Shown one piece after another: positions 52,589 to 55,455 of a DNA stretch of 64,000 nt. The stretch's first letter is position 1. Every line of letters begins with the position of its first letter. Both the position numbers and the translations under genes were made by a program. This DNA is from Methanobrevibacter ruminantium M1 (GTDB lineage: Archaea; Methanobacteriota; Methanobacteria; Methanobacteriales; Methanobacteriaceae): the NCBI RefSeq assembly GCF_000024185.1, contig NC_013790.1, positions 1,821,501-1,885,500 of the forward strand, written 5' to 3'. The notes beneath the pieces were generated by a model. It was given only the letters and a program-made list of their open reading frames with translations. It made no database searches and was not told the origin of the DNA.

Positions 52589-53428
52589 ATGGAATTAACT
52601 AGCTACTTAAGTCAAATAATCATTTCAGTGATAATATTTATCATCCTATGCCTCCTAGCAAATCAAGTGAAAAAAATAATAGAAAAGCATTACGGAATAC
52701 ATTTAAATCCTAATGATTTTCTTCCTATTGAAGAGATTAAATCATTAATGCAGCTTTATTTTTTGCTCATAATACTGCTTATTTACATATGCATCATGAA
52801 CTTCTTTTTTAACAATTTTGGAATAAGCGGGGAATTGATCTTTATCAATTCATTAATAGACATTATCTTATCAGTATTTCTAGTGACAATATATTATGAC
52901 GGCTCTACAAGAGGCAAGATAATTAGCATATTCCTTTTGCCTATTGTATCCATATCCTATATCCTCTTTGGAGGATCATTAATTAGATATTGGGATTTCA
53001 TCCGCATCCCTATACTGCTCTATCTGGTTGTGATTTTCTATAACAAGTTTATAGATTATACAGAAAGAAATAACCTTGGAAAAACAATTCTAATCCTATT
53101 AAGCATTATCTATACAGGAATTCTCTTAACAATAGTCTTAGAAAAACAAAATCCTATAGATGCAGTGGCAATGGTTACAAATGCAATTACAAGCAATGGA
53201 TATGCCGCTTTAGGAGACAGCGAAGGAGGAGTCTTGACTAGCGTATTCCTAGCTTGGGGAGGATATATTATTTCAGGAGTCGCTACAGCCACATTAGCTG
53301 CAGATATCATTCATAGAAACTCTAGAAAGAAATTTAGGAATATGGAAACTAAGATAGACAATCTTGAGAATAAGATTGATAATCTGGAACGGATAATTGT
53401 TGAATCTCAAAAGGAGAATGAAGAATAA
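52589..53428 (+). CDS. Ion-channel-like membrane protein with C-terminal coiled coil
   Basis: 279 residues with about six to seven transmembrane helices. The last third looks like a pore module: VAMVTNAITSNGYAALGD (P-loop, residues about 194-209), then helix VLTSVFLAWGGYIISGVATATLA, as in two-helix K+ channels. The filter position reads T201-S-N-G-Y-A instead of TVGYG. A coiled coil (NMETKIDNLENKIDNLERI) ends the protein. I call it channel-like; selectivity and even transport are unproven. AAGTGAAACC precedes ATG. Confidence 0.6.
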   Translation: MELTSYLSQIIISVIIFIILCLLANQVKKIIEKHYGIHLNPNDFLPIEEIKSLMQLYFLLIILLIYICIMNFFFNNFGISGELIFINSLIDIILSVFLVTIYYDGSTRGKIISIFLLPIVSISYILFGGSLIRYWDFIRIPILLYLVVIFYNKFIDYTERNNLGKTILILLSIIYTGILLTIVLEKQNPIDAVAMVTNAITSNGYAALGDSEGGVLTSVFLAWGGYIISGVATATLAADIIHRNSRKKFRNMETKIDNLENKIDNLERIIVESQKENEE

Positions 53429-53586
53429 AAACAAGTCCGAAAAAGCGAAGTTAAAATAAAATCTTTAAAAATAGTTAAAATAATAAAAAAAGCAAAATTA
53501 CAAAAAGAATTAAAGAATTAAGTTTTTAAAAAACTTAATTAAAAAAACAAATTAAAACAACAGTTACATCTATTGTCTAATGAAAA

Positions 53587-53600
53587 TGTACAATTGTACA
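53587..53600. promoter_or_regulatory. Perfect 14-bp palindrome beside a TATA-like element
   Basis: TGTACAATTGTACA is self-complementary, 10 bp before ATTATATATA. The arrangement is that of a regulator operator next to a promoter, in a gap where neighbouring genes need none. Confidence 0.4.
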
Positions 53601-53639
53601 TGAAAGTATCATTATATATAGCTTATATATAATCGAGGA

Positions 53640-53775
53640 TTATGTCTCCCTCGTTTAGGACAATTAACATTCCTAAAAATACTAAAAAACTAAAAAATAC
53701 AGTCATAAACATTTAGCGACTCCATTTTTAAAGTTCTATAATATGATAGAACCAATTATTAACATGACTTTTTTT
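53640..53775 (+). ncRNA. Candidate small RNA (low confidence)
   Basis: The stretch starts about 25 bp after the TATA-like ATTATATATA. It contains two small stem-loops (CGAGG/CCTCG partly at its start, GTTCTAT/ATAGAAC near its end) and finishes in a T run, as expected of an archaeal terminator. Only weak sequence evidence; it is not a known family to me. Confidence 0.25.
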
Positions 53776-54111
53776 ATAAAAAAATCATATCTTATCTAAT
53801 ATTATAAATGAACTAGTATATAAATACATACTATTTAAATCCCCTAATCGTTCGTATTTTCTCGATTAAACTACGAACAATCTTTTATTTTTATAAAAAA
53901 ATCATGACAAATCATTATAAACAATTATAAATTATTACAAATCATTATGAATCATTACAAATAGTTATAAATCATTATAAATTATTACAAACTAGGGCAA
54001 ATTAGACAAATAGTAATATCCATAGTCCTCCAAGAAAAATAAAAAGAAAAATTAATAAAAATAATAATAAAAATAAAAAATAAAAATAAAAAAAGTACTT
54101 AAATAAATGGA

Positions 54112-54540
54112 TCAGTCCTCATCCTCAGAGATTATCTGATTGTAGAGCTCAAAAAGAGTCTTTTCACGCTTATCCTTTTTCAGATTGCATTCCCAAACTG
54201 TAATCACATTCCACCCCATATCTTCAAGCTCCTTCTTATTGCGCTTATCACGATCCCTGTTTCCATAAAGCTTCTTTTCCCAGTACTCAACATTTGACTT
54301 TGGAATCTTAGCATGCTTGCATCCCTCATGGAGATGCCAGAAGCAGCCATGAACAAAGACAACAGTATTGTATTTAGGCAGAACAACATCTGGACTGCCA
54401 GGATATCGCTTGTCATTCTTTCTAAAGCGAAGCCCTTTAGAGAACAGGTAGCTTCTAACAAGGATCTCAGGCTTGGTGTCCTTGCCTCTAATCCTTGACA
54501 TGATATAACTCCTCTTCTCTTTGCTAAACTTGTCTGCCAT
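54112..54540 (-). CDS. vsr: Very short patch repair endonuclease (Vsr), orphan
   Basis: 142 residues of the Vsr family: SYIMSRIRGKDTKPE, PGSPDVVLPKYNTVVFVHGCFWHLHEGC (the metal Asp and zinc-binding Cys/His) and DMGWNVITVWECNL. Vsr nicks T:G mismatches made by deamination of 5-methylcytosine, and its gene normally lies next to a cytosine methyltransferase. No methyltransferase gene is in this window. The ATG at 54538-54540 follows the GTGAT ribosome site; the GTG at 54549 is not used. Confidence 0.92.
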   Translation of the reverse strand: MADKFSKEKRSYIMSRIRGKDTKPEILVRSYLFSKGLRFRKNDKRYPGSPDVVLPKYNTVVFVHGCFWHLHEGCKHAKIPKSNVEYWEKKLYGNRDRDKRNKKELEDMGWNVITVWECNLKKDKREKTLFELYNQIISEDED

Positions 54541-54608
54541 AAAAATCACTTTAATGGGAATACATAATGACTTATTTTCAATTAATCAAAAACAGTTTTT
54601 ATCTTGAA

Positions 54609-55355
54609 TCACTTATATTCAAAGCTTGGCATAAGCTCCAACTTGAACTTATTCAAATCATGGAGGTAATCGATTCTTTCTTTTGTAGTTTTGTCCTCAA
54701 TTTCGCCAGTTCGTATATACTTATCCAACACATCATAAGTAAATCCAAGCTTCTCTTCATCAGATTGGTCAGAGAGTCCATCAATCGGTACCTTATCCAC
54801 TATCTCACTCGGTAAATTAAGGCTTCTTCCAATTTCCTTAACTTCACTTACTGTCAGGTTTGAAAGTGGGCTGAAGTCACCGGCACCATCCCCATATCTT
54901 GTGGCATATCCCACCCAATCTTCTGAAAGATTGCAGTTGTTTGCCACCCTTCCGTTGTTAGACTGGCTTATGGCATATAAGGTGGACATTCTAATCCTTG
55001 GAGGAAGGTTGATTCTTGTCTGTTCGGATATTTCAATGCCAGATTTGGTCATTTGACTTAATACACCATCTACAGCATCCCTTATATTTATTATGTAATG
55101 CTTTATGTCTAAATGACTTACAAGAAGCTTTGCATAGTCAATGTCTGATTGCACTCCATTAGGCATAAGGACTCCGATAACCCTGTCCTTTCCAAGTGCC
55201 TCTGTGCATAAGGCTGCCACCACTGCACTGTCCTTTCCTCCGGATATTCCTATAATTGCATTGCAGCCCTTGCCGTTTTCTTCAAAAAAAGCTTGAATCC
55301 ATTTAATGCATTGGTTTTTAGCATCCTCTGCATCAAAATTGTTATTTTCAGTGAT
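54609..55355 (-). CDS. nadE: NH3-dependent NAD+ synthetase (AUC start)
   Basis: 248 residues once the start is corrected. The ammonia-dependent NadE fold shows IIGISGGKDSAVVAAL (PP-loop) and later YATRYGDGAGDFSPLSNLTVSE; no glutaminase domain is present. The first GTG in frame lies at the end of the PP-loop, so it cannot be the start. Upstream codons run ITENNNFDAEDAKNQCIKWIQAFFEEN. ATC at 55353-55355 sits 5 nt after GAGGAG, and a TAA lies seven codons before it. Confidence 0.88.
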   Translation of the reverse strand: MTENNNFDAEDAKNQCIKWIQAFFEENGKGCNAIIGISGGKDSAVVAALCTEALGKDRVIGVLMPNGVQSDIDYAKLLVSHLDIKHYIINIRDAVDGVLSQMTKSGIEISEQTRINLPPRIRMSTLYAISQSNNGRVANNCNLSEDWVGYATRYGDGAGDFSPLSNLTVSEVKEIGRSLNLPSEIVDKVPIDGLSDQSDEEKLGFTYDVLDKYIRTGEIEDKTTKERIDYLHDLNKFKLELMPSFEYK

Positions 55356-55360
55356 ATTAT

Positions 55361-55367
55361 CTCCTCT
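55361..55367 (-). promoter_or_regulatory. Shine-Dalgarno before the nadE ATC start
   Basis: AGAGGAG, 5 nt before ATC at 55355-55353; an ATG just upstream (overlapping this site) is out of frame and stops at once. Confidence 0.65.
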
Positions 55368-55455
55368 TATACATTATTAAAATGTGAATTTTGATTAATG
55401 CCTCTAGATAATATTTTCAATTTTTTATATAATAAAGGTTTTTAAAAAATATCCG

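Follow-up and report, generated by a model that had tools for sequence, protein, structure and literature searches.

What does the gap between two convergent genes at positions 53429-54111 of the window encode, if neither neighbour needs a promoter there? The window is the whole 64,000-nucleotide stretch of DNA that was analysed, positions 1821501-1885500 of the 2,937,203-bp chromosome (a single contig) of the archaeon Methanobrevibacter ruminantium M1, and the gap, with a GC content of 19%, lies among archaeal genes, namely gatD, gatE, nadE, genes for 2-oxoacid oxidoreductase subunits and a tRNA-Ala gene. An earlier note on this DNA had read a palindrome, TATA-like boxes, stem-loops and T-runs in the gap as a regulated small RNA gene on the plus strand. 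Based on comparison with related genomes, we consider that the gap most likely holds one small conserved gene on the minus strand. Our literature search found no papers that treat small RNAs of M. ruminantium or its transcript starts. An Rfam covariance-model search of the window returned only tRNA-Ala at the gathering score, and the best match below that score, potC on the wrong strand, had 18.6 bits and E=0.94.

The product of the plus-strand neighbour (52589-53428) is a multi-pass membrane protein of 279 aa that contains a pore-like stretch, TSNGYAALGD, and has a coiled coil at its C-terminus; searches of Pfam, NCBIfam, PADLOC and the PDB gave nothing above cut-off for this protein, and among the relatives inspected it was not seen at the corresponding position. 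The minus-strand neighbour (54112-54549) encodes a Vsr-type mismatch nicking endonuclease, which adjoins the small gene in most relatives, with G011 as an exception. Farther on, the minus-strand nadE frame (54609-55376) has an N-terminal stretch without ATG, GTG or TTG, while its relatives have a TTG start.

A DNA search with the gap retrieved 10 further genomes with 81-86% identity over 440-530 nt and, as an eleventh, G011 with 72% identity, so that the conservation proposed as a check in the earlier note was strongly borne out. The identity profile of the oriented copies and the DNA search together defined a conserved block at 53492-53962 on the minus strand, approximately from ATG-250 to ATG+220, that is common to these 12 genomes of the genus; mean pairwise identity was 0.69-0.98 within the block versus 0.45-0.59 beyond it, with a sharp fall at both edges. 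The block was present in 12 of 19 Methanobrevibacter genomes, as was the ORF described below, and the named carriers belong to Methanobrevibacter, including M. olleyae. It lay upstream of gatD in all 11 carrier genomes in which gatD was found, with tRNA-Ala or inserted genes in between in some genomes, neither in others, and 4.8 kb of other genes in G016. The nadE-gatD stretch was present and the block missing in G008; the block was also missing in G013, G014, G017, G001, G003 and G007, a group in which several genomes are incomplete or are split into short contigs at this place. The gatD tree was compatible with a single gain of the block in the clade. A covariance model run against 139 genomes of the family recovered the 12 known loci and three weak matches in other genera; the two strongest of these were rejected as lying inside an unrelated coding gene, and the third as also appearing to be coding sequence. 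An order-wide profile search (151 genomes) gave, outside the clade, nothing better than chance matches (best E 0.012), and a profile search of viral contigs found no relative of the peptide. By these sequence searches the small gene is lineage-specific, and all comparative evidence comes from 12 sequences of one clade.

Within the block, a 29-codon ORF at 53623-53712 (minus strand, stop at 53623-53625) encodes the peptide MFMTVFFSFLVFLGMLIVLNEGDIILDYI and is open in all 12 genomes, ending in TAA or TGA in each. ORF search matches had E values of 1e-14 to 5e-20, and the peptide consensus across the 12 genomes was M(F/V)MTVF(F/S)SFLVFLG(M/L)L(I/F/V)(V/F)LN(E/D)(G/V)D(I/V)(I/L/V)L(D/V)YI. The ORF had no internal indel in any of the 12 genomes, with many indels in both flanks, and its own internal starts aside it was the sole ORF of at least 12 codons with a start and stop shared by the 12 genomes. 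A Shine-Dalgarno sequence, GGAG (53720-53723, minus strand), stands 7 nt before the ATG and was invariant in 11 of 12 genomes; in G011 its position in the alignment differed by 1 nt. Variable columns of the ORF numbered 7/3/12 at codon positions 1/2/3 and pN/pS was 0.23, although the third-position signal taken alone was modest (P=0.04). Because the RNA is also structured, we conditioned the coding test on pairing state, placing the 26 observed changes randomly on columns of the same base and the same paired or unpaired state; with mutation type and pairing class fixed in this way, 13 synonymous changes were observed versus 6.7 expected (P=0.00025).

Residues 2-19 of the peptide are hydrophobic, with a Kyte-Doolittle mean of 2.68 that was reached by 1.9% of stop-free shuffles, and the product is predicted to be a single-pass membrane peptide with an acidic C-tail. 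No family of Pfam or NCBIfam applies to it. A match to DUF5976 (PF19401; 13.1 bits, E=0.095, versus a curated cut-off of 25 bits) was rejected as noise; in a scan with this family no genome scored above the cut-off and control genomes matched equally often. Synonymous divergence was 0.19-0.21 for the ORF versus 0.48-0.50 for gatD, in which no 29-codon window was as low, and a second, nucleotide-level constraint therefore acts on the ORF, which seems to be due to RNA structure. We also rejected a gatD leader peptide, because a terminator-like element follows the ORF and other genes intervene before gatD in G016.

Over 391 nt, the minus strand reached a folding energy of -90.5 kcal/mol (z=-5.5 versus dinucleotide shuffles), and the consensus fold of the 12 sequences reached -60.7 kcal/mol on the minus strand versus -33.4 kcal/mol on the plus strand. 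The variant pair types comprised 33 G-U versus 10 C-A on the minus strand, and 14 versus 17 on the plus strand in its own best fold. According to this modelling, the structured RNA is that of the minus strand. Pairs changed on both sides numbered 14 versus 5.5 in shuffles. The alignment that supports the structure is also the one from which it was built, and both the opposite-strand control and a control with partners slid favoured it, 95.5% of cells being paired versus 39-53% after sliding. In the ORF, paired columns were less variable than unpaired ones (P=0.0026), and synonymous recoding gave a weaker fold in each of the five genomes tried (z -1.5 to -4.2); the native fold was at or below 1.7% of recodings in every tested genome except G011, which showed the weakest effect and alone was not below 5%.

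The predicted structure bears directly on the start site. RNAalifold placed a start-codon hairpin, AAAAAUGGAGUCGCUAA[AUGU]UUAUGACUGUAUUUUU, at 53693-53729 (minus strand), in which the Shine-Dalgarno sequence lies in the stem, paired with codons 3-9, and the AUG in the apical loop. The probability of being unpaired was approximately 0-0.02 for the first G, the A and the last G of the Shine-Dalgarno sequence in 11 of 12 genomes, with the bulged second G free; pairing was predicted in 12/12 genomes, more loosely in G004 than in the other 11. The hairpin energy was -8.7 kcal/mol at 37 C, -8.1 at 39 C and -7.3 at 42 C. An RNA thermometer was judged unlikely, since the minimum-energy fold was predicted to be unchanged and still at -7.3 kcal/mol at 42 C.

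Downstream of this hairpin, a four-way junction at 53605-53683 (minus strand) consists of the closing stem AGUAUU/(A/G)AUACU and three abutting hairpins without unpaired linkers, with 97-100% of cells paired per helix in the 12 genomes. It takes in codons 10-29, which make up the last two-thirds of the ORF, and continues through the stop codon for another 18 nt. In 10 of the 12 genomes it was the fold of lowest predicted energy; in the other two it came within 1.4 kcal/mol of the minimum. The TATA dyad at 53611-53633, taken in the earlier note for a TATA-like box, forms a stem in the RNA that spans the stop codon: compensated UA to CG changes in two genomes kept the pairing and spoiled the TATA sequence, which argues against a box, although this dyad showed no RNA wobble preference.

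Behind the stop codon, the 16-bp palindrome ATGTACAATTGTACAT (53586-53601, minus strand) forms a covarying 3' UTR hairpin with compensatory GTAC to GCAC/GTGC changes. Its core, TGTACAATTGTACA at 53588-53601, is the perfect palindrome that the earlier note had described, correctly to within one base; dinucleotide shuffles gave 0.25 perfect palindromes of at least 14 bp per such gap, and 1.3% of the shuffled sequences included one with at least 4 G/C. Its reading as an operator did not hold up, the sequence having a single exact copy and covarying as a hairpin. The 2.94-Mb genome contained three TGTACAATTGTACA sites at one mismatch or less, just one of them exact, and therefore no regulon. Two further hairpins follow on the minus strand, ACAATAG..CTGTTGT at 53555-53578 and then a T-rich stretch (98% of cells paired, two compensated pairs), and a terminator-like hairpin, AATTAAGTTTTT..AAAAACTTAATT with CTTTAATTCTTTTT, at 53501-53540 (94.7% of cells paired, T-rich tail conserved).

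On the 5' side, a minus-strand UTR hairpin GUUCUAU..AUAGAAC (53733-53752) had 97.6% of cells paired, and its G-U changes fit the minus strand only. It is preceded by a covarying minus-strand hairpin at 53761-53791, the presumed 5' end of the transcript, with 8 G-U versus 0 C-A variant types and an outer pair that is UA, CG, GU or GC in different genomes. This hairpin begins approximately 25 nt past TTTATATA (53817-53824, minus strand), which from its constant distance to the hairpin in 11 of 12 aligned genomes is presumed to be the TATA box; in a flank count around TTTATATA, the sequence before it was a poor match to the local A-rich usage. A 14-codon mini-ORF (MYLYTSSFIILDKI in this genome; 53780-53830, minus strand) runs across the TATA box and has the same length in 10 of 12 genomes; it is probably a by-product of TATA conservation, because it has no conserved Shine-Dalgarno sequence.

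Upstream of the TATA box lies an inverted repeat, ATTGTTCGTA..TACGAACGAT (53846-53882, minus strand), which covaries (6 G-U versus 1 C-A variant types) and for which a genome search found no second copy. It could be an operator, or an RNA stem if transcription starts further upstream, as it may because the pre-TATA element fits poorly and the inverted repeat is RNA-like. Still farther upstream, Tandem Repeats Finder reported AT-rich repeats phased at 10 bp (53899-53991; period 10, 9.3 copies), of which the gene-proximal copies were kept, with approximately 90% conservation (identity 0.80-0.92 at ATG-240 to -180); the repeats could make the DNA curve, position histones or serve as a binding site in several copies. 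The inventory of TATA-like boxes, hairpins and T-runs in the earlier note was accurate as to location. Its degenerate repeats likewise exist as an array, with a period of 10 rather than 11 bp, and its second box, hairpin and T-run set at 53814-53890 is real but reads in reverse, as a likely TATA box with the inverted repeat upstream.

We therefore favour, as the probable reading, a minus-strand gene whose mRNA of approximately 285 nt is translationally occluded and encodes a 29-aa single-pass membrane peptide, similar in this to the mRNAs of bacterial type I toxins or small membrane proteins. This model combines computed conservation, coding signal, structure, strand and Shine-Dalgarno occlusion with an inferred promoter, transcript ends, regulation, membrane location and function. 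Transcription would probably start near 53791, at the expected distance from TTTATATA, and end near 53505. In the default fold, the Shine-Dalgarno sequence would be paired with codons 3-9, the AUG would sit in the hairpin loop and the remaining ORF and stop codon would lie in the four-way junction; with the ribosome site inaccessible and the ORF sequestered in this way, translation would be low. Opening of the hairpin by an RNA, a protein, a ligand or a processing event would allow translation, and the peptide would then insert into the membrane, where it might either regulate a membrane complex or limit growth. Of the regulated small RNA proposed earlier, a conserved, structured and probably regulated transcript thus stands, with a different strand, order and kind.

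Three other explanations were weighed against this one. If the minus-strand transcript were a non-coding structured regulatory small RNA, its ORF would be a by-product of fold-held sequence; the very strong fold, the gathering of variation in loops and the burial of the Shine-Dalgarno sequence in every genome (looser in G004) would suit such an RNA, but the synonymous excess was found conditional on pairing class, GGAG is conserved at good spacing, the stops alternate between TAA and TGA, the ORF loops are without indels and the product has an 18-residue hydrophobic stretch, and we regard this explanation as unlikely. It is also conceivable, though quite improbable, that the locus is an ordinary small membrane protein gene in which RNA folding is a side effect of AT-rich inverted repeats and of palindromes that serve as protein-binding sites in the DNA. 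Palindromes can indeed be protein sites, and the TATA dyad without wobble preference would agree with this, whereas the fold z-score against dinucleotide shuffles, the synonymous recoding control, the bias of G-U variants to one strand and the covariation all speak against this explanation.

One or more plus-strand small RNAs driven by TGTACAATTGTACA and the TATA boxes, the model of the earlier note, would account for the order of box and hairpin in this one genome and for the T-run at 53769-53775. The consensus fold of that strand is much weaker and without wobble support, however, the T-run after the hairpin is missing in all the other genomes, the TATA dyad is spoiled in two genomes with its pairing kept, and the palindrome covaries as a hairpin. 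Since fold and variant pairs favour the minus strand, which carries the conserved 29-codon ORF, we consider the plus-strand model highly improbable.

If the occluded micropeptide mRNA is correct, it would be a new gene in a rumen methanogen lineage relevant to methane emission, and an archaeal stretch of approximately 90 nt would be under three constraints at once, as a peptide code, as a start-site switch and as an RNA junction. Keeping micropeptide mRNAs translationally occluded is a theme of bacteria; with an archaeal example, one could test how general it is. The case also illustrates that a conserved gene can lie in a gap that size cut-offs leave as non-coding.

Several known systems resemble this arrangement in part. 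In RNA thermometers, too, a hairpin close to the AUG pairs the Shine-Dalgarno sequence; the hairpin described here, by contrast, should remain folded at the temperature of the rumen (predicted energy of -8.1 kcal/mol at 39 C). Dual-function small RNAs such as SgrS/SgrT and RNAIII are structured RNAs that also encode a small peptide, whereas the ORF described here lies inside the structured core. The mRNAs of bacterial type I toxins (tisB, dinQ, hok) encode peptides of approximately 20-60 aa with one transmembrane stretch, comparable to the 29-aa peptide, and are stable and structured with a buried ribosome site, as predicted here; they also lie between genes, each with a promoter and a terminator to itself, as appears to be the case for our locus. 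An archaeal type I toxin-like design, in which the mRNA of a membrane-active micropeptide is silenced by the Shine-Dalgarno-burying hairpin and four-way junction and released by an RNA or ligand, is a speculative extension that we consider rather doubtful. The host is archaeal and the peptide is acidic instead of basic; an antisense partner on the plus strand was not found at the locus, where hairpins lack a conserved T-run after them and the TATA dyad is spoiled in two genomes. According to a 2025 paper that reported a cyanobacterial case (PMC12390103), type I systems had until then been known from three bacterial phyla only, and DinQ is an example of a growth-limiting peptide (PMC3567139). 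Among methanogens, the Methanosarcina mazei small proteins sP36, which inhibits ammonium transport (PMC10714827), and MtrR, which modulates the Mtr complex (PMC13370731), are examples of membrane-complex regulators. The gene described here differs from these in its length of 29 aa and its occluded start site, and no sequence relation is expected; sP36 and MtrR are products of unannotated methanogen sORFs and have other proteins as their targets, and the present gene is likewise a methanogen sORF.
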